This document shows, piece after piece, positions 3,343-31,352 of a stretch of 32,679 nucleotides of DNA. The notes under the pieces are model-generated. The model ran no database searches. It saw only the letters and a program-made list of their open reading frames with translations, and had not been told where the DNA came from. The stretch is from a virus. Positions within the stretch are counted from its first letter, which is position 1; the number at the start of each line of letters is the position of its first letter. The position numbers were made by a program, and so were the translations under genes. The DNA lies in the IMG/VR virus record IMGVR_UViG_3300029922_000211, positions 1 to 32,679 of that record. One strand, 5' to 3'.

Positions 3343-4434
3343 ATGAGTATGTATAAAAGTCTCCTCAAAGCTTTGAAAGAACCGTCTCTCGTAAAAGCTG
3401 AGAACCCGGAAGCTTATAAAAAATTGGCTTCTACAGGATTTCTACTAGCTCATCCTGTAAAGATAAAGGGGCAAGATAAAAGACACGATAACGGGATTGG
3501 TTATCATGCTAGTATCAAGTTTTTTGACAAAGATACCGATAAAGAACATGACGCACACAAGGCAGCTTCCAAACTTGAAATGCATCCTCCAAATCCAAAA
3601 GAAGTTGGAATTGAACCTAAGGTTTTAAAAGATCGTAACGGAAACGATGTCTACGCATTGGGCTTAACTGGTAAGCATGCAGATAAGATGAAAGAGCATC
3701 ACGAAAAACTTGGACACATGGGCCACAAAGAAAATTACAAATGGGGCGCACATATTTCAGTTCCTAAATCCGTTCACGACGAAGTTAAAGAAAAAGGTCA
3801 CAAGACAGCCCATGACGCAGGGATCGAATTTGGACACGCAGAGTTAAAAAGAGGCCCTAAAATACTTCAAACTTATAAGCCTAAAGAAGTTAAAAAATCA
3901 GAAGATTTAGAACCATTGATGAAGCCCTTTGTATCTGAAGCCCAAAGAAAATGGGGACACACAGAAGCTGGCAAAAAAGCCCTAGGTGGTAACGCTGGAG
4001 TTCACGAATGGGACGAAGCGACCAAGGGTAAAAAACTTCCAGAGAAGATTACAAAATCAGAAGAGCTAAGGCCTTCAAAGTTAAACATAGAAAAAGGCTC
4101 AAAAGATATCGAATTAAAAAGTTTGGCTCAAATTCAAGAAGAGACAGCCTGGACCTGGGCTTCTCGCGCAGCTGCTGCTTATAAGAAATTAGAAGAAACT
4201 GGCGACTGGAAATGGAAGACTGATGCCGAAGAATATCGTCATGAAGCGGTAGAACATGCGGCCCTTATTGGGGATACTCATCCTACAGTTTTGACAGAAA
4301 TTCATGATGCTTTGGAAGAATATAGAAAAGAAGCTCAAGAATCAGCTGAAGAAATTAAAAAAGCTGAAAAATTAAGTAGACTTTCTGGAGATGACTTAAG
4401 ACGTTATCTAGAAGACAACAAGGGAGAAAAATAA
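3343..4434 (+). CDS. Virion-cluster protein with N-terminal 2H-phosphoesterase-like domain
   Basis: 363 residues. The N-terminal part has two histidine motifs, YHASIKFF with H55-A-S57 and WGAHISVP with H137-I-S139. They are 82 residues apart and separated by a VYALGL strand. Two H-hydrophobic-(S/T)-hydrophobic motifs at this spacing define the 2H phosphoesterase fold (LigT, cyclic-nucleotide phosphodiesterases and the phage anti-CBASS protein Acb1). The middle carries SEAQRKWGHTEAGKKALGG and HEWDEATKGKKLPEK, a short module that resembles ones seen in other phage structural proteins. The C-terminal third is helical and highly charged. K-S-E occurs at about residues 186 and 240. The gene is packed between structural genes, 3 nt after the previous stop. 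Enzyme activity and substrate are unknown. The domain could instead be a non-catalytic structural copy. Confidence 0.6.
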   Translation: MSMYKSLLKALKEPSLVKAENPEAYKKLASTGFLLAHPVKIKGQDKRHDNGIGYHASIKFFDKDTDKEHDAHKAASKLEMHPPNPKEVGIEPKVLKDRNGNDVYALGLTGKHADKMKEHHEKLGHMGHKENYKWGAHISVPKSVHDEVKEKGHKTAHDAGIEFGHAELKRGPKILQTYKPKEVKKSEDLEPLMKPFVSEAQRKWGHTEAGKKALGGNAGVHEWDEATKGKKLPEKITKSEELRPSKLNIEKGSKDIELKSLAQIQEETAWTWASRAAAAYKKLEETGDWKWKTDAEEYRHEAVEHAALIGDTHPTVLTEIHDALEEYRKEAQESAEEIKKAEKLSRLSGDDLRRYLEDNKGEK

Positions 4435-4435
4435 T

Positions 4436-4918
4436 ATGGATATACAACCAAATGATATAGATACTGTAGAAACTGGCGGCATGCTAGATGGTCAAGAAGT
4501 GAAATTAATTCGCCTAAAAGGCGGATTTTGGATGGGCATTCATAGAGGAAAAGCTATATCTGGTGGGAGTCATCCTGCTATAGTAAAACATACTATTTCC
4601 AAAATGTTTCCCAATTTCCAAGCCGCTATGTGCAAATCGGAATCGATGGCTGATGCCTTAGTTGAAAAACATTCACACTTTTTGTCTGACGATCTCCGTA
4701 AATCTGGACATGACATTTACAGTATTCAAAATGGTTCAGATGTAGAATTTCAAATTACAAAACAAAACATGAAAGTTGCTTCACTTCAAACAGTTCTAAG
4801 AGAAGATGCTTTGTTTGTTCCTGAAGTTAAATTTCCAAAAGAATTCACAAGAGCAATGGCCGGCGCGACCACCGAAAAGGCCCTTTCTTGCAGTTCTAAA
4901 ACCATAAAGATTAGGTAA
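4436..4918 (+). CDS. Virion-cluster protein, unknown function
   Basis: 160 residues preceded by an AGGGAGA ribosome-binding site inside the end of the previous gene. The N-terminal 55 residues look like a small beta domain (VKLIRLKGGFWMGIHRGKA). This is followed by AAMCKSESMADALVEKHSHF, which carries one of the recurrent K-S-E motifs, and then by mixed alpha/beta sequence. No family was recognised. It is part of the close-packed virion operon, 1 nt after the 2H-phosphoesterase-like protein and 5 nt before the next gene. Confidence 0.5.
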   Translation: MDIQPNDIDTVETGGMLDGQEVKLIRLKGGFWMGIHRGKAISGGSHPAIVKHTISKMFPNFQAAMCKSESMADALVEKHSHFLSDDLRKSGHDIYSIQNGSDVEFQITKQNMKVASLQTVLREDALFVPEVKFPKEFTRAMAGATTEKALSCSSKTIKIR

Positions 4919-6570: not shown

Positions 6571-7500
6571 ATGAACAAGAATGCCGAAATCTTTCTTAAA
6601 AAGACTCTTGGAGATGATTTTTTAGAATCATTTGGCGATTCTTTGTCTAAAAGCGAAATATACAAACAAGGGACCAGAACAATCACGGACACAAATGACT
6701 TGTTCCAGGGTCTTCAAATTGTTCCAAAAGCTCTTCTGAGTCTTTTAATTCAAGAACTATCACCAATGCAAATTGGCGACAACAAAGAAATAAAGATTCC
6801 CGGTAAAGAAGACACCATTTTAGTTGTTACTAAACATGAAAGAGACAGTTTTTCAGGTCAGATAATTCAGAACAACGTTAAGATATCAGATTTTCTACAT
6901 CGCTCTATTCCTGGACTTGGTTTAGTTCTCCTCTCAATTCTAGAACTCTACAACGTAGATGATCTAAATATGGAACCTTCCTCTGTTGATCACGAAAAAG
7001 AATCTGAAATAAATCGCATTATAGACGAAAGAATGAACTTACATAGCTTAGTTAATAAGGTTGTCGATGGCAAACTAATGCATAGAGACGCGGTTCAACA
7101 ACTTCTTATGTCTAAGCTAAATCAGTTATCTGACGAACATAAGAAGATTGAAGAAGAACATCAAGATATAATGGCCCCAAAAGAAGAGCCAAAGTCTGTG
7201 GTTATAGTATTAGCTCCTAAAAAAAGACCCCTTCAAGAATTCGTTGAAAATAGAAAAAAGAAATTAGATAAAAAAGAACACTTTATTCAGATGGAAAAAT
7301 CTGAAACCGTTTCTTGCACTGATTGCGGTCAAAGCATTTTTTCAAACGGAACCTATTCTGGCTGCATCTGTTACGGTGAAAGTAATAAAAAGCTTCATAT
7401 TAAAAAATCTGAAAATGGCTACAAGATCTCTTTTGGTAGAGGTTGGGACGCTGAAAATATCGAAATGCTGCTTGAAGTACTGAGGAGTCGAAATGGATAA
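6571..7500 (+). CDS. Virion-cluster protein with C-terminal zinc-ribbon-like motif
   Basis: 309 residues. The N-terminal half is mixed alpha/beta (GLQIVPKALLSLLIQELSPM). Residues about 140-235 are helical and charged with coiled-coil character. From residue 249 there is C-T-D-C, then a glycine/serine loop and C-I-C, giving a four-cysteine pattern that could bind zinc. The C-terminus is KISFGRGWDAENIEMLLEVL. K-S-E occurs three times (27-29, about 244 and about 275). The start has no clear ribosome-binding site, and it ends 8 nt inside the next gene, so the two are coupled. Function unknown; perhaps an assembly or chaperone factor for the virion. Confidence 0.5.
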   Translation: MNKNAEIFLKKTLGDDFLESFGDSLSKSEIYKQGTRTITDTNDLFQGLQIVPKALLSLLIQELSPMQIGDNKEIKIPGKEDTILVVTKHERDSFSGQIIQNNVKISDFLHRSIPGLGLVLLSILELYNVDDLNMEPSSVDHEKESEINRIIDERMNLHSLVNKVVDGKLMHRDAVQQLLMSKLNQLSDEHKKIEEEHQDIMAPKEEPKSVVIVLAPKKRPLQEFVENRKKKLDKKEHFIQMEKSETVSCTDCGQSIFSNGTYSGCICYGESNKKLHIKKSENGYKISFGRGWDAENIEMLLEVLRSRNG

Positions 7501-9394
7501 TCAAAATCTTTTTTATGCATTCGATGGAGACGATATTGGAATTCGTCATGCTCAAGCTATTCTTTCCGATAATGTAGGAGAGATTCAGCATATATCTTCA
7601 GAAATCACAGACGCGAACGCCATGGTTAAACAGTTTGTTGAATCCAATGGCGGACAAATGATTAGCTTTGGTGGCGATGAAGGCGTTTTTACGGCCCCAG
7701 CCGATTTTGTAAACTTGCTAGAAGATCTTCGTAAAAAATATGAACAAACCGTAGGCGCCACACTCTCCATTGGCTATGGATCTAAGCCCAGCGAAGCAGG
7801 TAAAGCTCTTTTAGCTGCAAAACAGACCGGTAAAAATAAAATAGTCCAATATGATGAGAATGCTGAAAAATACGCACAAGAAGCTCAACAAGATAGAGAT
7901 TCTGAAAACGCTCCAAAGCTAGAAGAGAGTGAAGAGCAAAAAAAGATTAAAGATGTTTTAGCTTCTGAAGAAAAACCAGAAGAAGATGGTATTAATGAAT
8001 TTGATGAAGCATTTCGTTCTTTAAATGAAGCCCATCAAAACGAAGATGTTGCTTCTGACAAGGTTCTCCCTGCCGGGGCCGATTCAGCACAAAATGAGCC
8101 AACACTTTGCGAACCTGACCAAGAAGATAATAACCTAGGTTACGACTCTGGTTATAAAAACTCGGACCAGATGGTTAGAGAAGAATCGTATCAAAGAAAT
8201 GATTTGACACCTCCAGTTAACAAAAAACCAAATTTAGTGCCTCAAGAAAGAACTAAAGAAGCGGTTTCTACAGATATACAGGAAAGCACTCGTCCAATGA
8301 ACGAAGTGCTTCCAGACCCGAAGGATGAGGAAGCTATGGACAAGAAACCAGCGCCGAAACAGTATCATGGTCAGGCCGAAGGTGAAGGATCTGAAGTTTC
8401 AGAATTACCAGCAGATAACAAACCTAGCGACTTGAAATATAACTATCATGAAGTTACGGAACCACAAGCTGACGTTCCAATTGAAAACGCAACTTCTGAT
8501 ATTGCAGAAGAAACAGAACAACAAGATATGCTTGGCGACAAACATTGCGCCAGCTGTACTTGTGGTAATCACGATGATTCGATTGAAAACGTTTTAGATC
8601 AACATCTAGAGAATTCTAAAGATTTTAATGAACATATAGATAACGATGAGCAAGATGACAATAAAGAGCCATCTGATACAGAAGATCTTTTAGACGCACA
8701 TTTGGAAAATGCAGCTGACTTAGAACATAGAATGGAAAATGGAACCAGCCGTCCAGAAGACTACGATCAAGAAAGCGGCGATATGGGCTTAAGCGAAGAG
8801 GATGCTGGAGAGCCAGATCTTTCCCAGGTTCTTCAGGGTGGGCTAGACCAACACGCTGATAGCATTCAAAAAGAAAAAGTTATACAGTTGGTTGGGCAAG
8901 CCTTAGAAGGCTTCAAATCTCAGAAAGCCATCTTAGATAAAGCGAAAGAACAAGCACCTGAACTACATGACGCTTGTATCAACATGTTAAAAGCAATGAT
9001 AGAATTATGTTCTTTGGCAGGGATAGACGAAAGTCGAGCAGAACAAGAAGTCTCTGAGATTGAAGGGCAATCAGGAGAAGAGGCTCAGAAACCAACTGAA
9101 GCTTGCCCCACCTGCGGTAAAGAAGACGCTCATAAAGAAGCAGCGTCTCCAGCTATAGATAGTCTAGATTCAGCACCAAAATCAGATTCATCAGAACAAA
9201 ATGCTGTAGGGCAATCTGTTAAAAAACTTCCTACTAAGCACGGCACTCCTCATATTGCAAAAGAGCCCATTCCAGAAGGCGGAATTAATGCTAAAGGACA
9301 GAAGAAAGTCACAGATAAAGACGGATCGGTACGTTTTATTGACATGAAACAAGGCAGAGTAAAAGGTCCATCTGGCGTACCTGTAAAAGGGTAA
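7493..9394 (+). CDS. GGDEF/minimal-CRISPR-polymerase-like domain fused to a long acidic tail
   Basis: 633 residues. Residues 1-121 read as a palm-type nucleotidyl cyclase. Strand one is YAFDGDDIG (D11, D13, D14). The hairpin is ISFGGDEGVF (G60-G61-D62-E63). Then come TLSIGYG and AGKALLAAKQTGKNKIVQY, matching the SIG and AK-x-x-GKN ends of GGDEF domains. DGDDIG plus GGDD/E is also the signature of mCpol (minimal CRISPR polymerase) proteins. All acidic residues expected to bind metal are present. The remaining 500 residues are acidic, low-complexity and probably disordered. They include a Cys cluster near 352-358 (CASCTCG), a duplicated (E)xLLDxHLEN unit near 363-415, and CPTCG near 538. The last 60 residues become basic. 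It sits among virion genes and overlaps the previous gene by 8 nt. Its product may be a nucleotide second messenger, or the fold may have been kept as a structural head. Activity is not shown. Confidence 0.6.
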   Translation: MDNQNLFYAFDGDDIGIRHAQAILSDNVGEIQHISSEITDANAMVKQFVESNGGQMISFGGDEGVFTAPADFVNLLEDLRKKYEQTVGATLSIGYGSKPSEAGKALLAAKQTGKNKIVQYDENAEKYAQEAQQDRDSENAPKLEESEEQKKIKDVLASEEKPEEDGINEFDEAFRSLNEAHQNEDVASDKVLPAGADSAQNEPTLCEPDQEDNNLGYDSGYKNSDQMVREESYQRNDLTPPVNKKPNLVPQERTKEAVSTDIQESTRPMNEVLPDPKDEEAMDKKPAPKQYHGQAEGEGSEVSELPADNKPSDLKYNYHEVTEPQADVPIENATSDIAEETEQQDMLGDKHCASCTCGNHDDSIENVLDQHLENSKDFNEHIDNDEQDDNKEPSDTEDLLDAHLENAADLEHRMENGTSRPEDYDQESGDMGLSEEDAGEPDLSQVLQGGLDQHADSIQKEKVIQLVGQALEGFKSQKAILDKAKEQAPELHDACINMLKAMIELCSLAGIDESRAEQEVSEIEGQSGEEAQKPTEACPTCGKEDAHKEAASPAIDSLDSAPKSDSSEQNAVGQSVKKLPTKHGTPHIAKEPIPEGGINAKGQKKVTDKDGSVRFIDMKQGRVKGPSGVPVKG

Positions 9395-15793: not shown

Positions 15794-17167
15794 ATGAACA
15801 AAATTAAATGGACCTCAGAAAGGTTACAAGAAGAAGCGCTAAAATATACCAGCCGTGGAGAATTTCAAAAGAACAGTAAGACAGCTTACAATCTAGCACA
15901 AAGACGTGGATACTTAGAACAAATATGCAAACACATGTATATTTTAGATTGTTCTAAAGAAAATAATCCCAACTTTAAATGGACTTATGAAATGCTAAAG
16001 CTAGAAGCATCAAAGTATTATAATAAAACAGATTTCAGAAATAATAATTATCAAGCATATTCGGCAGCATGGAGAAATGGGATATTAAATGAAATTTGTT
16101 TACATATGATAAAAAATAGAAATACTAAAAAAACTATATCAGAAGTATGTGAAATATTAGAAAAAGACGGCTATAAACTGTTAAGTACAGAATACGTAGA
16201 TGCCCATACTAAAATGGAAACTCTTTGTCCGGTTGGACATGCTTACAATACCAAATTGAATGGCTTTTTGGGCGGCTATAGATGTGGTATGTGCTCAGAC
16301 AAAGGCACTTCTGGTCCAGAAAAAGAAATTTTTAATTTTATTAAGGCTTTGCATTCGGATGCTGTTAATAATGATAAAAAATTAGTATATCCTAAAGAAA
16401 TAGATATTTACATTCCATCTATAAGTCTTGCTATCGAATATTGTGGACTTTATTGGCATAATGAAAATAGTCCAGAGCCTAGGCTTAGAATGTATCACAT
16501 CAACAAAATGAAACAGTGTAACGAAAAAGGCATACGTTTAATTACTATATTTGAAGATGAATGGCTAGAAAGACAAGAGCAAGTTAAAAATTTTCTGCTT
16601 TCCGTTATAGGAAAAAATTCGATTAAAATAGGCGCTAGAAAAACTGAGCTTAGGGAAGTTCCAAACAAAGAAGCCGCTATCTTTCTAGAAGAAAATCACA
16701 TACAAGGCAAATCTACTCTAAAAATAGCTTTCGGTCTCTATCATAACGAAGAATTGATAGCTATAGTAACTGGAAACAAACACCATAGAAATGGTCACGA
16801 AAATACTTTTGTATTGAATAGACTTGCTTTTAAAACCAATGTATCTGTTAGTGGCGGTTCTTCTAAACTTCTAAAAGCTTTAATAAAATATGCTAAAAAC
16901 AATGGTTATTCTAAGCTAGTTTCTTGGTCCGACAATAGGTGGTCAGAAGGTAGAGTTTATGAAAAACTTGGCTTTGTTCTTGCAGAGAGTTTGGGTCCCG
17001 ATTACTCGTATGTTCAAAAACAAAGCAGAATTTCCAAACAGTCGTGTCAAAAGAAGAACCTAGTTAAAAAGGGCGCTATTGGTAATACAGAGCATGAAAT
17101 GGCACTGTCTTTAGGACTACACAGAATATGGGATTGTGGAAAAAAACAATGGCTAATAAAGTTATGA
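15794..17167 (+). CDS. Homing endonuclease, EDxHD/Vsr-like, chimeric N-terminus
   Basis: 457 residues. Two repeats of the EALKY...ICxHM type occupy about 6-110. One zinc-finger-like unit follows (CPVGHAYNTK, then YRCGMCSD, about 145-175). Then comes a nuclease core with EIDIYIPSISLAIEYCGLYW, the following H and N, and later LITIFEDEWLERQ. The order D, E, H, then E-D-E-W is that of EDxHD/Vsr-like homing nucleases. The C-terminal 190 residues (EENHIQG, KYAKNNGYSKLVSWSDNRWS, NTEHEMALSLG) match the C-terminus of the minus-strand gene at 29913. It shares its N-terminal repeat type with the genes at 1623, 17274 and 24251, so it is a hybrid of two endonuclease families. It sits between tail tube and terminase with its own promoter. 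Confidence 0.8.
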   Translation: MNKIKWTSERLQEEALKYTSRGEFQKNSKTAYNLAQRRGYLEQICKHMYILDCSKENNPNFKWTYEMLKLEASKYYNKTDFRNNNYQAYSAAWRNGILNEICLHMIKNRNTKKTISEVCEILEKDGYKLLSTEYVDAHTKMETLCPVGHAYNTKLNGFLGGYRCGMCSDKGTSGPEKEIFNFIKALHSDAVNNDKKLVYPKEIDIYIPSISLAIEYCGLYWHNENSPEPRLRMYHINKMKQCNEKGIRLITIFEDEWLERQEQVKNFLLSVIGKNSIKIGARKTELREVPNKEAAIFLEENHIQGKSTLKIAFGLYHNEELIAIVTGNKHHRNGHENTFVLNRLAFKTNVSVSGGSSKLLKALIKYAKNNGYSKLVSWSDNRWSEGRVYEKLGFVLAESLGPDYSYVQKQSRISKQSCQKKNLVKKGAIGNTEHEMALSLGLHRIWDCGKKQWLIKL

Positions 17168-17273: not shown

Positions 17274-18239
17274 ATGCAAAAAATGAAATGGTCTAAAGAA
17301 AAAATTATAAAAGAAGCCCGTAAATACAAAACTAAAACTGAGTTTCATAAACTTAGTGGGGGCGCTTATTTTGTTGCGAATAAAATTGGTATATTAAATG
17401 AGATTTGCTCTCATATGGGTGAATCTAAAAATTCTCCCTGGACGTTTGAAGAGTTACAACAGGAAGCGTTAAAATACAAAACTAGAGGCGAATTTCAAAA
17501 TAAAAATCCAAATATATATCAAGTTGCATATAGAAAAAAAATTCTTGATAAAATATGCGGTCATATGGAGTACATTTGTTACCCTTGGTCTATAGAAGAA
17601 TTACAAGAAGAAGCTTTAAAGTATAATAATAGAACTGAGTTCAGAAAAAAAAGTCCGGCAGCTTATAATACAGCATCTCAGAGAAAAATATTAAACGACA
17701 TATGTAGCCACATGACAAGGTTGCTCAGAGAAGACTGGACGCTTAAAGAGCTAGCCATAGAAGCTTTAAAATACAAAACTCGTTGGGAATTTCAGCAGGC
17801 TAGTTTAGGGGCTTATAAAGCGGCATATAAAAGAAATTTATTAGATGAAATTTGTAAGCATATGATAATAGGCACTAATTCTTCTGTTCCCGAAATATCT
17901 CTTTTTGATATTGTAAAAATGCTATACCCTAAAACCCAAAAACTCGTGGATCGTAAGGGTAAAATCGAAAACAAACCCCATATTAAGGGTTTTGATTTAG
18001 ATATTTACATTCCAGAACTACGTAAGGGTATAGAGTTTGATGGTAAGTTTCACCATTCTTTTGAAGGCCTAAAAAGAGGAAGACCTAATTGGCCAGATGA
18101 AGATTTAAAGATCTATCATGAGCTAAAAGATAATTGGTTCAAAAGTAAAAATATTAAGGTAATTCATGTCAAAGAAGAAGACTGGATTAAAAATAAACAG
18201 GCTTGCATTGATAAATGCTTAGAATTTTTAAATAAATAG
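17274..18239 (+). CDS. Homing endonuclease, Vsr-like/EDxHD type, four N-terminal repeats
   Basis: 321 residues. Four copies of the repeat ending in ICxHM lie in about residues 5-200 (the first as KYKTKTEFHKLSGGAYFV). A nuclease domain follows with GFDLDIYIPELRKGIEFDG and then FHHSFEG and HVKEEDW. The first start (ATG 17274) has no ribosome-binding site; an in-frame ATG at 17283 is possible. DNA at 17960-18040 is identical over 81 bp to 24808-24888. DNA at 18090-18233 is about 95% identical to the end of the gene at 1623. This is a mosaic of the two relatives. It lies between another endonuclease gene and the terminase gene, whose promoter box begins beside its stop codon. Confidence 0.8.
   Translation: MQKMKWSKEKIIKEARKYKTKTEFHKLSGGAYFVANKIGILNEICSHMGESKNSPWTFEELQQEALKYKTRGEFQNKNPNIYQVAYRKKILDKICGHMEYICYPWSIEELQEEALKYNNRTEFRKKSPAAYNTASQRKILNDICSHMTRLLREDWTLKELAIEALKYKTRWEFQQASLGAYKAAYKRNLLDEICKHMIIGTNSSVPEISLFDIVKMLYPKTQKLVDRKGKIENKPHIKGFDLDIYIPELRKGIEFDGKFHHSFEGLKRGRPNWPDEDLKIYHELKDNWFKSKNIKVIHVKEEDWIKNKQACIDKCLEFLNK
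17960..18040 (+). repeat. 81-bp tract identical to 24808-24888
   Basis: By eye the two tracts match at all 81 positions, with different bases immediately outside. Both encode the catalytic core (IENKPHIKGFDLDIYIPELR, ending in EF). The surrounding parts of the two genes are much less alike. Confidence 0.85.
18090..18233 (+). repeat. Tract about 95% identical to 2316-2459
   Basis: Partner of the tract in the endonuclease gene at 1623, with seven differences over 144 bp and no gaps. It begins 50 bp after the identical tract shared with the gene at 24251. Confidence 0.8.
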
Positions 18240-18256: not shown

Positions 18257-21200
18257 ATGGACTTCTCCCAGCTTCAGGATGACAAAAAAGCCGAATTAGC
18301 AAAAATAATGCTAACTCCTCTTAACTCTGCTGCAGAGATTAAGGATTGGGCACGCTTTTATCTTGATCTAGAACTACCCACTGAAAATACCGATCCAGAT
18401 TCTACTTCTAATCCATTAGAAGCGGCATGGTATATATATGAAACCTTTAAAAATAACTGGGGCGACCGTAGACCAGGCGCTATAATGATCAGCTGCAGAG
18501 AAGGTTTAAAAACGATTATAGTTACAATCCTAGAGTTACTTCTAATGGTTCATTTTCAGCTAGAGGTAGGACACGCTGCTGCTATTGAATCTCAATCTGC
18601 AATTGCTCTAGGTTATATCGAAGGATTTCTACTTAAAATTAGTCCTCTCCTAGACGCCGCCGGCTGGATACCAACATCTTCCAATAAACGTGTTATTCGT
18701 TACAAAACACCTCAAAGAAAATCTCCTTTTATTAAAGTTGTTATTTGTTCAAGCAAAGGAATGAACGGCTTACATTCAAACGTCCTTTTCTTAGACGAAT
18801 TAGATCTTGCAGATAAAGCTGCTCTTAAGGAAGGTCAAAATATTACCGGATTTTCTCGTGGTATTCACGGTATGATGGTCCTAGTTTCTTCCTACAAGTA
18901 TTCATTTGGTAATGTTGCCGAAGCGCTAGAAAAGGCAGAAGAAAGAAATTATAAAATATTAAAATGGAATCTTATAGATTTGACTGAAAGATGTCCTACC
19001 GATAGACATTTGCCTGATGGCCCAAAACAAGACATGTATACTTCCAAGAACCTACCTCTAAAAAATCTTACATCCGATGAGTACATTGGGCTACCTGAAG
19101 TCGAAAAATCTAAATACGATTTTATAGCACAAGCGCATGCTGGTTGTGTTAAGTGCCCTCTTTTAGGGCTTTGTAAGACAAAATTAGCAACTAAAGATGC
19201 AGCTGCTACAGGCGGATTTTATAAGCCAATTGGAACCGTCATTCAGAAATTTAGAGAAAATGATCCAGATACTGCTGAATCCCAGCTATTATGCAGAAGA
19301 CCCGGCAGTGAAGGGTTAGTTTATCCAAGATTTAGTGCTGCATCGAATGTCATAACTACAAAACAAGCTTACGAAACTCTAATAGGACCCACTACCTATC
19401 AGGACATATCTGAAGCAACCCTATTATACGAAATGCAAAGAATAGGCATAGAGTTTTTTGCAGGAGTTGACTGGGGTTTCTCTCACGATTTTACTCTTAC
19501 AGTTGTGGCTAAAATTCCAAATGGCGAGTGGTGGCTTATGGAAACCTACGCTAGTCCTGGATTAGAGTTTGATGATATTTTGCAAGTATCTAAGACATTC
19601 AGAGATAAGTACGGTCCACAAAAATGGTGGGTTGACCAAGCAATGCCTGCTTATATTAAGAGTTTTAATAAAAATGGAATGAAGTGTCCTGATTTTACAA
19701 AAGACGTCCTAGGCGGCATATCGGCAGTTAGATCTAAAATAGTTAATTCTAGTGGAAAAAGAAGTTTTAAAATAATTCAAAATGATTCAAATAAAAAAAC
19801 AATAGTAGCCTTGTCAAAGCATCGATTCCAGATCGATGGTCAGGGCAATGTAACCCAGAATCCAGCCGATGAACCAGGTATTGCCGACATTTGTTTTTTA
19901 CCGGAAACCATCATTTATACCAAAAAAGGTGCTAAAGAAATAAAAGATATAGAAACAGGAGATTTAGTATTAACTCATACTGGAAAATTTCAAAAAGTTT
20001 TATCTAAAATAAGTCGACAGTACAAAGGAAAAATTGTTGCGGTAAACTCTCACTGCAAACCCTTAGTTAAAAGCACGCCAAATCACCCTTTTTTCTTATC
20101 TAATTCTACTAGAACTTTTACTAAGGATAAAGACAATTTGACTGGTCAGAGAAGAATAGAAGAGAAATTCTCTTTTAAGCCTATAGGAGAAGTTTTAATT
20201 CCAAAAGGAAAAGAAAGAAAGACAAAACCAATCCCATCTACCTTTTTCCCAAAAATAATAATAAAAAATGAACCATATTTTATAAATTTCTCTAAGTACG
20301 TTCCTGAATGGATAGAAAAAGACGGTTTATTGTATAATAAAATGAGACATAATGGAAAAATAAACAAAAATGTTGAGATAACTGAAGAAATTGCTTTTAT
20401 GGTGGGATATTTTGTAGCAGAAGGTAGTAAAAGCGGGAACGGAAGCGGAGTACATTTTTCTGGACATAACAAAGAAACCAATGTTTTACTATTATTGAAT
20501 GAAGCTACACAGCAATTAGGAGTAAATAATCCCATTTATTTAAATAGTAAAAATGATAATAGTAGGAATATTATTATCAGCAGCAAGCCTCTTCATAATT
20601 TCTTTAATGAATTATCAAAAGAAAAAAATAAAAAATTTCCAGATTTTACACATGATTTAAACAGAAAATGTTTAATCGCTCTATTGTCAGGCTATATATT
20701 TGGAGATGGCCATATAACAAAAAATAATAATGGTATTTCTTCTAATTCTATTAGCAAAAACATATCTTTCACCGTTCATGCACTAATGGCACAACTAGGA
20801 TATAGACCTAGAATAAAATTTATAAAAAGAAAAAATAGATGGAAAGGAATAAACGGCCTTATAAAGAGCGATATGTGGGTTGTTCAGTTAAATTCTTCAG
20901 ATTCTGCTTCTTTTTTAAAAGAAGCTTTTTTAAACGAACTCATTAAAAAGTCTTATATAGATAAAATAAACACAGTTTTAACACCGAAACAGAACTCTTG
21001 TACACAAATTATATTAGAAGATGGAATAAGCTCTTCTATAGTAGACATTACTACAGAAAACTACTCTGGTTTAGTATATAATTTAGAAGTAGAAAACGAC
21101 AATTCTTACGTAGCAAATTGTTCTGCTGTTCATAATTGTGATAATGTACGTTATATCGGACAGAATATGTGGGCCGTAAAGGGTACCCAAAGAGCAATGG

Positions 21201-21358
21201 TTGAATATACAGATGATCCAGGAAAATTGGGATTGCCAAATAAACCTATTCATAAAGCAAATGATCTTATGTTGAACGAAATTACAAAAAGACTTGGCGG
21301 TTCTGCTGTAGTTGCTAGTACTACTAAAAAGAAGGGTGGATTTACATTTTCCGTATAA
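18257..21358 (+). CDS. terL: Large terminase subunit interrupted by an intein
   Basis: 1033 residues including a 415-residue intein; the spliced protein would be 618 residues. The ATPase part has a degenerate P-loop SCREGLKT (79-86) and Walker B VLFLDELDL with D180-E181. A C-x2-C-x5-C cluster at 297-306 (CVKCPLLGLC) is extra and may bind metal. The RNase H-like nuclease has GVDWGFSHDF (D405), WWVDQA and, after splicing, IADICDNVRYIG. The terminase powers DNA packaging into the prohead through the portal and cuts the concatemer. The ATG is preceded by an extended -10 box and no ribosome-binding site. Portal and minor head genes follow. Confidence 0.85.
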   Translation: MDFSQLQDDKKAELAKIMLTPLNSAAEIKDWARFYLDLELPTENTDPDSTSNPLEAAWYIYETFKNNWGDRRPGAIMISCREGLKTIIVTILELLLMVHFQLEVGHAAAIESQSAIALGYIEGFLLKISPLLDAAGWIPTSSNKRVIRYKTPQRKSPFIKVVICSSKGMNGLHSNVLFLDELDLADKAALKEGQNITGFSRGIHGMMVLVSSYKYSFGNVAEALEKAEERNYKILKWNLIDLTERCPTDRHLPDGPKQDMYTSKNLPLKNLTSDEYIGLPEVEKSKYDFIAQAHAGCVKCPLLGLCKTKLATKDAAATGGFYKPIGTVIQKFRENDPDTAESQLLCRRPGSEGLVYPRFSAASNVITTKQAYETLIGPTTYQDISEATLLYEMQRIGIEFFAGVDWGFSHDFTLTVVAKIPNGEWWLMETYASPGLEFDDILQVSKTFRDKYGPQKWWVDQAMPAYIKSFNKNGMKCPDFTKDVLGGISAVRSKIVNSSGKRSFKIIQNDSNKKTIVALSKHRFQIDGQGNVTQNPADEPGIADICFLPETIIYTKKGAKEIKDIETGDLVLTHTGKFQKVLSKISRQYKGKIVAVNSHCKPLVKSTPNHPFFLSNSTRTFTKDKDNLTGQRRIEEKFSFKPIGEVLIPKGKERKTKPIPSTFFPKIIIKNEPYFINFSKYVPEWIEKDGLLYNKMRHNGKINKNVEITEEIAFMVGYFVAEGSKSGNGSGVHFSGHNKETNVLLLLNEATQQLGVNNPIYLNSKNDNSRNIIISSKPLHNFFNELSKEKNKKFPDFTHDLNRKCLIALLSGYIFGDGHITKNNNGISSNSISKNISFTVHALMAQLGYRPRIKFIKRKNRWKGINGLIKSDMWVVQLNSSDSASFLKEAFLNELIKKSYIDKINTVLTPKQNSCTQIILEDGISSSIVDITTENYSGLVYNLEVENDNSYVANCSAVHNCDNVRYIGQNMWAVKGTQRAMVEYTDDPGKLGLPNKPIHKANDLMLNEITKRLGGSAVVASTTKKKGGFTFSV
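19892..21136 (+). mobile_element. Intein with LAGLIDADG homing endonuclease in the terminase
   Basis: Residues 546-960 of the terminase frame. Block A begins at Cys546 (CFLPETIIYTKKGAKEIKDI). Block B has T-P-N-H in KSTPNHPFFLS. The endonuclease has two LAGLIDADG-type helices, MVGYFVAEGS (about nt 20400-20430) and LSGYIFGDG (about nt 20683-20710). Block F is YSGLVYNLEVENDNSYVA and block G is SAVHN. The penultimate His, final Asn and the following Cys961 are all present, so splicing should be active. The insertion lies inside the conserved D-I-C-D-N segment of the nuclease domain, close to a catalytic acid. Confidence 0.9.
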
Positions 21359-22398: not shown

Positions 22399-24249
22399 AT
22401 GGACCAAAAAGATAAAAATAAAATTGCTATTGGTTTTGGTGATAGCATAGAAGATGCCGAAGAGCGATCTGGTCTATCAGCATTGGAAAATGCTATTCAA
22501 AAAATGGATTCTCCAGAATACCTAGCTAAGAGCGAGTCCCCGCTTTCTCAATTGATAAAACAAACGACTGGTGCTGCTAAAAAGAAAGCGCCAAGTTTAG
22601 CATTTACAGAACTCCCTTCTCCTCAGTCAAACTTTCTAGGTCTTTTTAAAGCTAGAACAAGACTACTTCCTCCAGAACTTATCAAAACGGTTAGAATTAC
22701 CGATCATCTAATTGCTGCAATTCTTAGAACTCGCGGCAACATAATGAAACTCTATGGCCATCTTAAAAAAGATCGCTTTGACGTTGGTATTGAACTTAAA
22801 ATTAAGCCCGAGTTTTTAAAAGTTTTGAATCCGGAACAATATGAAAAAATTGTAAAAAGGATGAAAAGACTAGAGACTATTCTTTTAAATTGCGGTCACA
22901 CCGAAGGCCTAGAACATCATGACCAAATGACTCTAGCAGATTTCATGAGCACTCAGACTATTAACGGACTGAGCTTTGGTTCTCATGCTACAGAAATTAT
23001 CTATGATCGTTCTCATGAGCCAGATGAAAACGGTAATTTCCCTTTTCATAGATTTAGACCAAGAGACATGGCTACTATCTATCGTGCAGTTCGAAGGGGC
23101 GAACAAGTTGGAAGTAACCTCAGAGAACTAGCTCTAAAAGCTCTAGAAGCAATGGATGGCAAGAGTTTTAATATTGATATTAAAAAGCTTAGAGAAGACG
23201 AATACGCCTGGTTGCAAGTTATAGAAGGCCAACCAAGACAGGCTTTTACTGATAACGAAATGATTATCTATAATCTATTTCCTTCAACCGATGTAGAGCA
23301 CAACGGATATCCTGTTAGCCCTTTAGACACTTGCATTAACTGTATTACTACTCATATTTCTATCGAAGCTTATTGGAAGACCTATTTTAGTAACGGTAAG
23401 TCGGCTAAGGGTATGCTCGTCATCAAGAGTGATGAGGTTGACCAGCAGATGATCGACGCGATTAAGATGCAGTTTAATGCTTCTATTAATTCCGTATCAA
23501 ACGCTTTCAGAACTCCTATTTTCGGCCTCTCAAAAGGAGACGAAGTAGAATGGACAAGTACTGCTGACAAACTAGAGAATGGCGAATTCGGGTACACATA
23601 CGATGCGGTTGCCCGTAATATCCTGTCTTCTTTTGGTGTTTCTCCAGACGAAATCCCAGGATACGGGCATCTTTCCAAATCTTCTAATTCTCAAACTTTG
23701 AGTGAATCTAACAACGAATTTAAAATGACCGCTGCCAGAGATTCTGGATTGCGTCCTCTTATCCTAGGGTGGCAAACTTTCTTTAATCAGCGTTTAATTC
23801 CAATCATTGACCCAGAATTAGGCCAATTGATAGATCTCAAACTTTCTGGTTTAGATAGTGAATCTAAAGAACAAGAAGCTGCTAGATTACAACAAGACTC
23901 TGAACTTTTCTATGATTATGACTCCTTATTGAGAGAAGTGGATCTTGAAGGTGTCGGCGAGGCAATGGGCGGCAGAATGCCGTTCAACGAAAGATATCGT
24001 CAAGTTCTAGACTTCTACACTAGTGTTGGTGAAATTAGAGGCAGATTTTTTGGCGATCCAGGCGCAACTTTTGATCCTCTTCTTAGATTCAAAAGAGATG
24101 CGTTTTGGTTACAGAACATACAATTACAAATACAAACTAACCCAAATAGCATCAAAGCCCTATATGCTCCTAGAGATCCAGAGTTAACCAAAGAATTACT
24201 CGAAATGGAAATTCAGGACATGCTAGAATCGGACGAGGAAGGAGTATAG
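22399..24249 (+). CDS. Portal protein
   Basis: 616 residues. It has the portal sequence layout: an N-terminal acidic tail, a ALRTRGNI-like helix segment (RITDHLIAAILRTRG), an EYAWLQVIEGQP region, a long central IISIEAYWKTYFSNGKSA-like segment, SKGDEVEWTSTADKLENGEF, and a GVSPDEIPGYGHLSKSSNSQ loop before the C-terminal stem (GLRPLILGWQTFFNQRLIPI). The dodecameric portal forms the head vertex through which DNA is packaged. K-S-E at 44-46 (YLAKSESPL) would be a site for trimming an N-terminal arm by the prohead protease. It is followed 1 nt later by a homing endonuclease gene, then head genes. Confidence 0.8.
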   Translation: MDQKDKNKIAIGFGDSIEDAEERSGLSALENAIQKMDSPEYLAKSESPLSQLIKQTTGAAKKKAPSLAFTELPSPQSNFLGLFKARTRLLPPELIKTVRITDHLIAAILRTRGNIMKLYGHLKKDRFDVGIELKIKPEFLKVLNPEQYEKIVKRMKRLETILLNCGHTEGLEHHDQMTLADFMSTQTINGLSFGSHATEIIYDRSHEPDENGNFPFHRFRPRDMATIYRAVRRGEQVGSNLRELALKALEAMDGKSFNIDIKKLREDEYAWLQVIEGQPRQAFTDNEMIIYNLFPSTDVEHNGYPVSPLDTCINCITTHISIEAYWKTYFSNGKSAKGMLVIKSDEVDQQMIDAIKMQFNASINSVSNAFRTPIFGLSKGDEVEWTSTADKLENGEFGYTYDAVARNILSSFGVSPDEIPGYGHLSKSSNSQTLSESNNEFKMTAARDSGLRPLILGWQTFFNQRLIPIIDPELGQLIDLKLSGLDSESKEQEAARLQQDSELFYDYDSLLREVDLEGVGEAMGGRMPFNERYRQVLDFYTSVGEIRGRFFGDPGATFDPLLRFKRDAFWLQNIQLQIQTNPNSIKALYAPRDPELTKELLEMEIQDMLESDEEGV

Positions 24250-24250
24250 T

Positions 24251-25105
24251 ATGAAACGCATCAGATGGACTAATGAAATGTTACAAGAAGAAGCATTGAA
24301 ATTTAATAACAAAAGAGATTTTCATAATAATAGTCCTGCGTATAAGACAGCCTCGTTTCGAGGAATTTTAGACGATATTTGTAAACATATGCCCGAAGTC
24401 TCCAACTTTCCCTGGTCTATAGAAGAATTACAAGAAGAAGCTTTAAAATATAAAAGTAGAAAACATTTTCAGATAAATAGCAATGCCTATCAAGTAGCAC
24501 AAAAAAGAAAAATACTAGATCAAATTTGTTCACATATGCCAAAACATATGGATGTGTCTGGTAAAAATCATTCAAGATTTAAATGGACTTTGGAAAAACT
24601 GCAAATAGAAGCCTTAAAGTATAATAATAGAGGCGATCTATTTCTAAAAAATTTAGGTGCATATAAAGCTGCGGTACGATTAGAGATATTAGATGAAATC
24701 TGTAAACATATGAATAAATCTCATAATATTTCTAAACCAGAACAAAATTTATTTGATACAATTAAAAATATTTATCCAAAAACTCAGATTTTAAGAAAAC
24801 GTAGTATTAAAATCGAAAACAAACCCCATATTAAGGGTTTTGATTTAGATATTTACATTCCAGAACTACGTAAGGGTATAGAGTTTGACGGAACTTATTG
24901 GCATTCTGTGGAAGGATTAAAAAGATCCAGACAACATTGGCCTAGTGAAGATTTGACCGATTATTCTAAAATTAAGGATAGTTATTTCGCTTCAAAAGGT
25001 ATCCAAATATTTCATATCAAGGAAGAAGACTGGAATAAAGATAAACAAGTTTGTATTGATAAATGTTTAGAATTTTTGAATGTTACATTGGAAAAGGTAG
25101 CTTAA
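24251..25105 (+). CDS. Homing endonuclease, Vsr-like/EDxHD type, three N-terminal repeats
   Basis: 284 residues. Repeats lie at about 5-50, 55-100 and 114-158, each ending in ICxHM (ICKHMPEV, ICSHMPKH, ICKHMNKS). The nuclease domain begins near 165, with GFDLDIYIPELRKGIEFDG followed by TYWHSVEG and HIKEEDW. Unlike its relatives at 1623 and 17274 it has no promoter of its own. AAGGAG inside the end of the portal gene is the ribosome-binding site, so it would be expressed with the portal. Its catalytic core shares an 81-bp identical tract with the gene at 17274. It sits between the portal and the gene at 25107. Confidence 0.8.
   Translation: MKRIRWTNEMLQEEALKFNNKRDFHNNSPAYKTASFRGILDDICKHMPEVSNFPWSIEELQEEALKYKSRKHFQINSNAYQVAQKRKILDQICSHMPKHMDVSGKNHSRFKWTLEKLQIEALKYNNRGDLFLKNLGAYKAAVRLEILDEICKHMNKSHNISKPEQNLFDTIKNIYPKTQILRKRSIKIENKPHIKGFDLDIYIPELRKGIEFDGTYWHSVEGLKRSRQHWPSEDLTDYSKIKDSYFASKGIQIFHIKEEDWNKDKQVCIDKCLEFLNVTLEKVA
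24808..24888 (+). repeat. 81-bp tract identical to 17960-18040
   Basis: Second copy of the shared catalytic-core tract. A separate shared run of 35 bp, around 24413-24447 and 17586-17620, encodes part of a repeat unit. Confidence 0.85.
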
Positions 25106-28574: not shown

Positions 28575-29855
28575 TTATTTTTGCTTTTTATCGAGCCAAC
28601 TATGCATGGATGGACGAGCCATCATTTTTTTAAGCTTTTTCTCAGCTTTAAGCGATTTATTTAAACAGAGGGTTTGCCCTAGAGCTTTGATTTCGCCTTT
28701 AGTCAAGTTTGGCATGGTTTTTGCCATATAGGATTCGAATTCTTCTCTTTTATTCCAGGCTTTATACTCTTGCTCAGCTCTGGCTAACATGCTCATTCCC
28801 ATAGCGCCTTCTCTGGCGTTAGGGTCATTTTTCTTGTCTTCAAAGCCTTTTTTCATTTTTTTGTCAAGCGACTCTTTACCAAGAGCGGCGCCACCGACTA
28901 GGGTAGCAGGAGCTGCCATTCCAGAGCCAGCCGTCATAGCTTTGTTAAGTTTAGGTTTAATCATTCCTGCGGATGAAACACTGTGAAGTCTATTTGGACT
29001 TACTTTATTTTCGCTAACTCCAGACATGTATTTTACAGCGTGCGCTCCAGCATCTTTTGGATTACTAAAGGTACCTTTTTCTCCACCAACTCCGGCTAGC
29101 TTACCAGCATGCTTTACGTGGAAATTGTCGCCTTCTTTTATAACAGAAACGTGCCCATGTTCTGGGTGTTGAAAATTACCACCACCAGTGTGATTCCAGC
29201 CTTTTGCACCATTAACAGGGGTTGATTTTGTAGGAGCCGGATGAGCGGATGGAATACTAGAACCAGGAACTTCTGCTTTTTTCATAGATTTTTCTTCTTC
29301 AAATAGCTCTATAGTTACGGAGGGTTCTGATTTGAATAGAGAATCCGCATCCGAATCTTTTTTCTTATCTTGTGCGGATATTAGTTCTGCAATACATTGT
29401 TTGTTAGCACTTGCTCCGGTTACTGTTATTCTACGAGCAATTGACTTAGTAACAACAATACCTTGTTTATCTACCTTAGAGCCTTCTATACTGAATCCAA
29501 CCATAGGGTTTTCATCGGGATGCTGTGAATCATCTATAAATAAAGCAGCACATTCTTTGGCGGAATCTTTTTTGTCATCAAATAAACGTCCCATCACATA
29601 TAGGTATGGTGTTTTGCATTTTTCCCAGTAATATTTATGACGGTCATTTTCACAATCTTTATCGGAAAATATTTTTTTATATTCTAGTATTTTTCCAACT
29701 GTTTGTGCAGGGATATCGCTCTTGTGCTCCCAATTAAAGGCTCCGCCTATCAATGAAGAACAATCTATACCCGCAAGATCTACGATTTCACCAGCGGTAT
29801 CTATTGCTTGGCTAGATCCAATTCCGTCTATATAGGTGCACTGATTATCTGACAT
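28575..29855 (-). CDS. Prohead (capsid maturation) protease
   Basis: 426 residues. The N-terminal domain has GGAFNWEHKSD (H44), YLYVMGRLFDD, MVGFSIEGSKV (S122 in SIEG) and then ITVTGASANKQ, the order of His, Ser and V-T-x-x-x-N motifs in the T4 gp21/S80-like prohead proteases. The protease domain ends near residue 160. K-S-E at 175-177 (LFKSEPSVT) may be a self-cleavage site. The remaining 250 residues are basic and Gly/Ser/Lys-rich and look like a scaffold or internal region. The gene is on the minus strand, unlike the portal and terminase, and has an AATCTTTA box four bases before the ATG. No neighbouring major capsid gene is visible. Confidence 0.75.
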   Translation of the reverse strand: MSDNQCTYIDGIGSSQAIDTAGEIVDLAGIDCSSLIGGAFNWEHKSDIPAQTVGKILEYKKIFSDKDCENDRHKYYWEKCKTPYLYVMGRLFDDKKDSAKECAALFIDDSQHPDENPMVGFSIEGSKVDKQGIVVTKSIARRITVTGASANKQCIAELISAQDKKKDSDADSLFKSEPSVTIELFEEEKSMKKAEVPGSSIPSAHPAPTKSTPVNGAKGWNHTGGGNFQHPEHGHVSVIKEGDNFHVKHAGKLAGVGGEKGTFSNPKDAGAHAVKYMSGVSENKVSPNRLHSVSSAGMIKPKLNKAMTAGSGMAAPATLVGGAALGKESLDKKMKKGFEDKKNDPNAREGAMGMSMLARAEQEYKAWNKREEFESYMAKTMPNLTKGEIKALGQTLCLNKSLKAEKKLKKMMARPSMHSWLDKKQK

Positions 29856-29912: not shown

Positions 29913-31352
29913 TTATAAATTTATTTCCCATCTAATTTTACCACAGTCCCATATTCTACGAAAACCTAATGAAAGAGCCATTTCTTTTTCTGTATTGCCG
30001 ATCCCACCCATTTTTTTGAGCTTTTTCTTGTTGAGAGATTGTTTAGAATATCTAAATTCTTTTTTAACATAAGAATAGTCTGGAGGCAGCTCTATACTTC
30101 TTTTAAATCCTATTTTACCGTATACGTTTCCCTTAGACCACCTATTGTCGGACCAAGAAACTAGCTTAGAATAACCATTGTTTTTAGCATATTTTATTAA
30201 TTGTTTCAATAACTTACTAGCACCACCAACTACAGTTGTGTTATTTTTAAATGCCATTCTACTTAGTATCAACTCTTTATCGGAAAGGTTCCTATGATGT
30301 TTGCCTCCTGTCATTATTCCTAACAATTCTTTTTCCATATAAATACCGAATGCTATTTTAAAATTACAAGAACCCTGAATATGATGCTCTTCCAAAAATG
30401 CTGAAGCTATTTCTTTAGAAACTTCTATAACTTCCGTATTTCTAGCATATACCGTATCGGTGTTGCAATTAAAAAGAGATTTTAAATACCCTATTACCTG
30501 ATCTTTTCTATTTAGCCATTCATCTTCAAATATAGTTATGAGATTAATTCCTTTAGAGTTAGATATTTCTAATTTGTTTTTATGTTCTCTTCTGTTTTTA
30601 TATTCTTCGTTGTGCCACCATAAGCCGCAATATTCCAAGCCAATCATATTCTCAGGACACAGAATGTCTATTTCAAATGGTTTTATAAATTTTCTATCAT
30701 TTTCTATTATTTTTATACCTAAATTAGATATAAAATCACTTATTTCTGACTGAGCACTGGAATGATGGGCTGTACATTTTCTGCATCCATTACCATATTT
30801 GAGTCTGTCTAAGTTACTAGCAAACTCTCCATGAATTTCGCATTCAAATTTTGCTGATTCTTTTAAACCTATATAATCTCCGTACTTAAATAGTGGCTTA
30901 ATTTTCTTTTTATTTAAATCTTCTATCAATAGATCGTATTCTTTTTCTTTTAATCTATTTAGCTTAGATATATTATTAAAAGCGCATTTTTTACATCTCT
31001 TACCCTGTCTAAGGTTGTCGTATGTTATACTAGATTCCCCATGTAAGGGGCATAAATATGGAAGTTTTTCTTTGGCACGGTTATATTCTGAAAAAAGCGG
31101 AACATAAGAACAATCTAAAAAAAGCTTTCTAACTTTTTCTATATCTGTTCTTTGTTTTGATGCTCCAACAGCAAAGCCACACTTTGGGCATCCATGACTT
31201 CGTAAAAAAGAGCTTAATGAAGTTGAAAAACTACCATGTTTATGGCATTCGAAATCCAAAGGCAATTTTTTATTTTTATATATTGTAGATAATAACTTAA
31301 CATCCTTAGAAATAGCTATATATGAAATTTGTTCTATTGTATAAGGCTTCAT
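29913..31352 (-). CDS. Homing endonuclease with three zinc-finger repeats, EDxHD/Vsr-like
   Basis: 479 residues. Three treble-clef-like units (about 33-60, 98-125, 168-195) follow the pattern C-x2-H, a short region, then C-x2-C: FECHKHG to CPKCG, YLCPLHG to CKKCA, and FECEIHG to CRKCT. The nuclease core has EIDILCPENMIGLEYCGLWW, followed by H and N, and ITIFEDEWLNRKDQ. The last 190 residues closely resemble the C-terminus of the gene at 15794 (HHIQG, KYAKNNGYSKLVSWSDNRWS, NTEKEMALSLG). It is inserted between the protease and chaperonin genes, and a sigma70-like promoter lies before its start. Its N-terminal DNA-reading part differs from the ICxHM repeats of the other endonucleases, while the catalytic half is shared with one of them. 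Confidence 0.8.
   Translation of the reverse strand: MKPYTIEQISYIAISKDVKLLSTIYKNKKLPLDFECHKHGSFSTSLSSFLRSHGCPKCGFAVGASKQRTDIEKVRKLFLDCSYVPLFSEYNRAKEKLPYLCPLHGESSITYDNLRQGKRCKKCAFNNISKLNRLKEKEYDLLIEDLNKKKIKPLFKYGDYIGLKESAKFECEIHGEFASNLDRLKYGNGCRKCTAHHSSAQSEISDFISNLGIKIIENDRKFIKPFEIDILCPENMIGLEYCGLWWHNEEYKNRREHKNKLEISNSKGINLITIFEDEWLNRKDQVIGYLKSLFNCNTDTVYARNTEVIEVSKEIASAFLEEHHIQGSCNFKIAFGIYMEKELLGIMTGGKHHRNLSDKELILSRMAFKNNTTVVGGASKLLKQLIKYAKNNGYSKLVSWSDNRWSKGNVYGKIGFKRSIELPPDYSYVKKEFRYSKQSLNKKKLKKMGGIGNTEKEMALSLGFRRIWDCGKIRWEINL

Follow-up and report, generated by a model that had tools for sequence, protein, structure and literature searches.

A conserved 2H phosphoesterase domain in a modular, predicted head-cargo protein of a soil phage, with an mCpol gene further down its operon

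According to our analysis, the gene at 3343–4434 of the soil-phage DNA studied here (the window, meaning the whole stretch of 32,679 nucleotides) encodes a protein of 363 aa, read from an ATG start codon, that carries a conserved 2H enzyme domain with a predicted activity on cyclic nucleotides or RNA ends. We consider it probable (roughly 60%) that the product is a head-cargo proprotein whose 2H enzyme would be freed in the capsid, ejected and set to act on a nucleotide signal. In detail, 3343–4434 would encode a proprotein carried in the head of a contractile phage resembling myxophage Mx1, with a metal-independent 2H phosphodiesterase (active site H-x-[S/T] ... H-x-[S/T]) as its constant module. 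As the head matures, the prohead protease of the phage itself would cut after the motif hydrophobic-x-K-[S/A]-E and release the enzyme inside the capsid; ejected with the DNA, the enzyme would then act immediately. Its substrate would be a small nucleotide, in the most likely case an immune signal of the host that is a cyclic (oligo)nucleotide or 2',3'-cyclic; RNA ends are less likely. The gene and its parts are as follows.

3343–4434, plus strand: predicted modular head-cargo (polyvalent-type) protein, 363 aa, with a 2H domain.
3388–3402, plus strand: candidate prohead-protease site LVKAE (residues 16–20), from the motif counts; its first residues lie in the low-confidence linker 8–17.
3439–3876, plus strand: 2H phosphoesterase domain (residues 33–178), from the AlphaFold2 model and fold matches.
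3505–3513, plus strand: predicted first catalytic motif, H55-A-S57 (H in 29/29 domains, S/T in 29/29).
3751–3759, plus strand: predicted second catalytic motif, H137-I-S139 (H in 29/29, S/T in 29/29).
3889–3903, plus strand: candidate prohead-protease site VKKSE (residues 183–187), from the motif counts, in the linker 182–192.
3925–4047, plus strand: WGHTEAGKK/HEWDEATKGK module (residues 195–235), which occurs too as small stand-alone phage proteins.
4048–4062, plus strand: candidate prohead-protease site ITKSE (residues 236–240), mostly in the low-confidence linker 237–258.
4123–4377, plus strand: C-terminal helical module (residues 261–345), from AlphaFold2 helices.
4354–4368, plus strand: weakest candidate site, IKKAE (residues 338–342), a motif match but within the predicted helix 314–345.

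Relatives were collected as 24 loci through the whole protein and 16 through the profile of its N-terminal domain, with several records recurring; the duplicates L006, L008, L014, L031, L032, L036, L074, L076 and L097 are omitted from all distinct counts. What the closer relatives have in common is the N-terminal ~170 residues; the C-terminal parts vary. His 55 and His 137 are kept in all 29 distinct 2H domains, each with Ser or Thr at the +2 position (57 and 139), at a median identity of 30% and a minimum of 14%; the only invariant residues are Y25, G43, H55, F61, G127 and H137. The record G003 (= L013/L014/L052), with a degenerate 2H domain, was kept out of this set. Judged from these sequences, the active site is strongly constrained. 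The motif pair alone is a weak criterion: two H-x-[ST] motifs 60–110 residues apart appeared in 26% of 5000 composition-preserving shuffles, and in 1.4% once a hydrophobic fourth residue was added, a stricter pair of which 3343–4434 is the sole carrier among the 62 window ORFs of at least 60 aa. We take the 2H identity as real because the active site is conserved in the 29 domains and the fold is confidently predicted; a chance motif was rejected, since the tetrad is retained across the 29 domains despite the frequency of the bare pair in shuffles.

Neither Pfam nor PHROGs recognised the whole protein, and no close relative of it was found in named phages. The 2H domain itself is mostly missed by single-sequence profile searches. 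One of 14 domain sequences (L038) reached Pfam 2_5_RNA_ligase2, at an E value of 3.5e-4 that lies below the curated cut-off; beyond this match, the 14 domains gave nothing useful when scanned against Pfam, NCBIfam and PHROGs. None of 15 records searched with Pfam PF13563 gave a match, and the profile of the 2H alignment, run against PDB sequences, returned a single, unrelated match (E 1.1). By contrast with these profile searches, the AlphaFold2 model of the N-terminal domain (14-sequence alignment; pLDDT 88.8, pTM 0.85) and the structure searches agree on the bilobal beta fold of 2H proteins, and the H55 and H137 motifs sit on predicted strands 53–61 and 137–139. Ranks 1–16 of the Foldseek search against the PDB, in which a single match reaches E 0.001 or better, are all 2H proteins or one phage phosphodiesterase of unchecked family; they include YjcG, Usb1, AKAP18, Acb1, the rotavirus VP3 C-terminal domain and CPDase, and the top structural match is 9q2g, the phosphodiesterase of Burkholderia phage BCSR5. 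The viral structure library gave matches to Acb1 proteins, an "RNA ligase" and a capsid morphogenesis protein.

The first-pass annotation had read H55-A-S57 and H137-I-S139, spaced 82 residues, as the signature of a 2H phosphoesterase domain and had named homologues without either His as evidence to the contrary. The pair is present as described, the predicted fold and its 2H structural matches bear the domain out, and the structure comparison it had proposed with Acb1, LigT and CPDase recovered the 2H fold with matches to all three; 29/29 homologous domains keep both His, with the one degenerate relative (G003) outside the set. The spacing of 82 is indeed 2H-like but is not specific, because that of Acb1 is 69.

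In VIA the highest Z values fell on CPDase 1jh6 (9.4), a Pyrococcus 2'-5' RNA ligase-like protein (9.0), YjcG (8.9) and LigT (8.7). An RNA-directed role is possible, if on the unlikely side: the enzyme would heal 2',3'-cyclic RNA ends, or trim or cut RNA early in infection, in the manner of LigT, CPDase or Usb1, for example in repairing tRNAs cut by host anticodon nucleases. The best Z values, which fall on CPDase, the archaeal ligase-like protein and LigT among others, the high place of Usb1 in the Foldseek list, and an RNase role proposed for polyvalent 2H domains in the accessible part of Iyer et al. (2017; PMC5512222) speak for it. However, no RNA ligase gene was recognised among the window ORFs searched, and the rows for Acb1 (Z 7.2–7.6) and for CPDase, LigT and Usb1 (8.4–9.4) differ by a spread of about 2 that does not separate the subfamilies. 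Assignment to Acb1 was not made, since VIA places Acb1 among, and not above, the other 2H families; an anti-CBASS role is accordingly speculative.

The position of the gene is that of a virion gene. With the window ORFs named by their start positions (w2485, w4436 and so on), the order is w1129, w2485, the 2H gene, w4436, w4924, w5102, w6082, w6571, the mCpol fusion gene, w9413, w10290 and the sheath gene w12796. This order is kept in the relatives, with homing-type genes inserted in places and w4924 not always seen; the 2H slot, flanked by w4436 and by the tail fibre-like w2485 (phrog_772), is kept as well. The neighbours that matter for the argument are the following.

4436–4918, plus strand: conserved neighbour of 160 aa with the motif MCKSE, from synteny in relatives.
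22399–24249, plus strand: portal protein (phrog_12, E 1.9e-16) with LAKSE at residues 42–46.
28575–29855, minus strand: candidate prohead protease, extended by a long C-terminal part (match to phrog_1028, head maturation protease, E 8.2e-7).

In this variable phage "polyvalent" protein the 2H domain stays constant and the other domains swap. In relatives an SLT transglycosylase replaces the helical tail of the window protein, so that the 2H domain is found joined to unrelated, exchangeable domains, either this transglycosylase or a phrog_3170 region; the 2H protein of G002 contains, by reading, an acetyltransferase-like stretch, and of the relatives read, L027 has the helical module too. The first-pass annotation had described a fusion of the domain to a WGHTEAGKKALGG / HEWDEATKGK module and charged helices within the structural operon. 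Both stretches of the module occur, at residues 204–216 and 221–230; position and synteny support the operon location; the charged helices exist but are merely one among several interchangeable C-terminal modules. Three stand-alone WGHTEAGKK-type phage proteins scanned with Pfam gave 0 matches. The gene order is recognisable in the cultured Myxococcus phage Mx1 (L043), whose slot protein (L043:24404–28843, 1479 aa) has acetyltransferase, ADP-ribosyltransferase ("ART-PolyVal") and NUDIX matches and no 2H match; it is annotated as a NUDIX hydrolase only. Polyvalent proteins were named by Iyer et al. (2017), who listed 2H as a phage-only domain of these proteins and, in the text available to us, proposed RNase, oligoadenylate-degrading or nucleotide-signal roles for it (PMC5512222). 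The architecture of 3343–4434 is that of their polyvalent proteins, and the general idea is therefore already in print.

Several other features of the window were observed. Related endonuclease-like ORFs lie among the structural genes on the plus strand (1623–2483, 15794–17167, 17274–18239 and 24251–25105); they cross-match each other, and one that was scanned matches the homing endonuclease phrog_3339. The large terminase subunit at 18257–21358 (plus strand) is split by an intein with a LAGLIDADG domain. On the minus strand, 29913–31352 has a Mom-like match (E 7e-7) downstream of DUF723/treble-clef-like stretches in the protein, and 31402–32679 encodes the C-terminal part of a Cpn60/GroEL-like chaperonin; an annotated GroEL is present in Mx1 too.

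The case for processing in the head comes from a short motif. K-[S/A]-E occurs 34 times in the 2H family, where shuffling predicts 8.0; in 108 of 128 unique contexts one of L, M, I, V or F stands two positions before K. The tripeptide is also found in the neighbours w4436, w6571, w11360 and w11636, and not in w1129 or the sheath. Whole-genome counts gave 29 motif sites in 39 head/tail-region ORFs (23–59 kb) against 5 in 195 others for G002 (p 1e-14) and 16 in 35 structural-region ORFs (5–43 kb) against 4 in 198 others for Mx1 (p 1e-7), for regions picked after the structural genes and sites had been located and for two genomes that are non-independent via homologous genes. Reversed, Arg, Asp and Gln versions of the motif showed no enrichment in these counts. 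The richest proteins of G002 are the one beside the major capsid protein (7 sites), the 2H-slot protein (7) and the homologue of 28575–29855 (6), which matches the "putative prohead protease" of Mx1 (6e-33); the motif is thus concentrated in protease, capsid-adjacent protein and cargo, a sequence pattern expected of processed head cargo. The portal of Mx1 has LAKSE at residues 45–49.

In 18 2H proteins, 38 sites fall outside the 2H core and 1 inside it (L049); the core count is close to the shuffling prediction (0.6), and therefore the contrast stems from enrichment outside the core. In the full-length model, pLDDT drops below 50 in segments 8–17, 182–192 and 237–258, which wholly or partly overlap three of the four window sites; the fourth lies within a helix. 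No motif site is present in the relatives L082, L088, L092, L093, L041 and L053, nor in the major capsid proteins of G002 and Mx1, unlike the capsid proteins of SPN3US and its relatives, which have protease sites according to the available text of PMC10052503 and PMC5694885. We infer that the sites bracketing the 2H domain would be cut by the prohead protease, freeing the enzyme inside the head. Delivery with the virion, which the earlier annotation had raised, is plausible, and this cleavage-site signature is in its support. Neither the candidate sites nor the nearby mCpol gene had been noticed in that annotation.

The same motif could instead be a packaging or assembly signal, with the 2H protein entering the head uncleaved. 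Sites are often doubled, some proteins have seven, and no published measurement of protease specificity was found for this phage group, all of which suits such a signal. We nevertheless regard it as rather unlikely, because the Glu before the cut is common to known prohead proteases (A-x-E in SPN3US and S-x-E in phiKZ, as given in the accessible parts of PMC10052503 and PMC5694885), and the G002 protease itself has 6 sites, as self-cleavage would predict. A packed 2H protein with a structural or scaffolding role, in which catalysis is irrelevant, is very improbable: the degenerate domain of G003 indicates that the domain is able to persist without its active site, but the site is complete in the 29 other domains at very low identity.

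A further gene of interest lies in this operon, six genes downstream of the 2H gene.

7493–9394, plus strand: mCpol-domain fusion protein, 633 aa (Pfam mCpol, E 1.8e-20).
7511–7852, plus strand: mCpol (minimal CRISPR polymerase) domain, residues 7–120, with motifs DGDD and GGDE (Pfam and OptS match).

The mCpol domain here is joined to a long acidic protein, and repeated C-P-Y-C motifs follow mCpol in some relatives. Searched against the PDB, the family profile matches Panoptes OptS (E 5e-17), and 14 of 15 aligned rows retain the predicted catalytic DxD and GGD, the exception being the degenerate mCpol of Mx1. By pattern, both motifs are found in 27 of the 28 mCpol proteins from the mCpol-only search described next; L077, where the domain lies further inside the protein, was missed.

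A search with mCpol only gave 29 loci. The 2H slot is covered by 23 of them (20 distinct), all 23 with an intact 2H domain; five (L077, L079, L090, L091, L095) do not reach the slot, and L096, cut inside mCpol, has an intact 2H. Ten of the 20 distinct loci (L071, L080–L083, L087–L089, L092, L093) were new to any query and all ten have an intact 2H; they are the cleanest test of linkage because they were reached through mCpol only. G012, an exception to the linkage, is a short record. G010 keeps the 2H domain and G011 has it in a different background, both with no mCpol match; in G003 both domains are degenerate; G005–G009, with the WGHTEAGKK-type module only, match neither. The linkage, as seen in these sequences, fits functional coupling and equally fits simple descent within one phage group. 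Among the part of the window ORFs scanned with Pfam, none is an S-2TM-beta partner (OptE).

Within named phages the mCpol protein matched Mx1 only. Although its mCpol is degenerate, Mx1 has a separate gene, L043:17173–17904, that is annotated as "nucleotide cyclase", has a GGDEF match (E 1.3e-9) and adjoins the prohead protease. A genome scan gave a single Deltaproteobacteria MAG contig with both domains, which is probably a phage contig. The source genome of L053 (G023, a Deltaproteobacteria bog MAG) has two contigs with this mCpol, one of them also with the 2H gene, a hint as to the host group.

As described in the available text of PMC12657230, the mCpol of Panoptes makes 2'3'-c-di-AMP, which restrains a toxic effector, and T4 Acb1, a 2H enzyme, degrades 2'3'-c-di-AMP and can trigger Panoptes. 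A second group found deletion of acb1 in T4 to be without effect and plasmid-borne acb1 to lower colony formation (PMC12657218, in the part available). No mention of a phage-encoded mCpol was found in the accessible portions of these two papers. We tentatively raise, as an unlikely extension, a matched pair delivered from the virion operon, in which the 2H enzyme would destroy host cyclic-nucleotide alarms and mCpol would produce its own cyclic nucleotide, which would either be a decoy that silences Panoptes-type guards during erasure of the alarms or serve to steer the host as a signal.

If packed in the head, the 2H enzyme would be able to act as soon as infection begins, ahead of phage gene expression, unlike a counter-defence enzyme that has to be synthesised first. 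The motif hydrophobic-x-K-[S/A]-E may serve as a means of listing likely head cargo in this phage group from sequence alone. The linked mCpol suggests that phages may make the nucleotides of guard systems, beyond destroying or soaking them up; beside the 2H enzyme it could supply the guard's ligand while host alarms are erased and, if this is true, the two would form a phage-side mirror image of Panoptes.

Among known systems, the polyvalent 2H proteins of Iyer et al. (2017) are alike in being multidomain and encoded among virion genes, with predicted injection and a possible nucleotide-signal target (PMC5512222, available part); they differ in that here 2H is constant, candidate protease sites bracket it, and an mCpol gene lies in the operon. 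Our literature search found no publication uniting these three features and none containing both "mCpol" and "polyvalent", while "prohead protease" and "polyvalent protein" occurred together only in PMC5512222. Acb1 (phage T4 57B, FBB1) shares the 2H fold, the H-x-[T/S] tetrad and phage origin. Its spacing is 69 (H44/H113) against 82 in the window protein, and it has a C-terminal lid and the base-contacting residues Y12, W74, F107, W147 and E141 (PMC9117128). The window protein is a fusion in a virion operon, and its match to Acb1 (Z 7.2–7.6) is not above those to other 2H enzymes.

The internal proteins of T4, with Alt, are head cargo of a large contractile phage; some are processed by the prohead protease, and they are ejected with the DNA. 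The ejection proteins of SPN3US are likewise head cargo co-ejected with DNA, some cut after Glu by the prohead protease; for the window protein the same fate is predicted from sequence. Compared with these cargo proteins, the motif here is hydrophobic-x-K-[S/A]-E, and the putative internal cuts would separate enzyme domains, beyond removing a propeptide. The phage mCpol differs from OptS of Panoptes in its fusion to a long acidic protein and its place in a structural operon, with no S-2TM-beta partner recognised nearby. Its profile matches along the length of OptS (E 5e-17) with the first motif, D-G-D-D, aligned, whereas the second reads GGD[E/Q] in the phage proteins and ADG in the aligned OptS.
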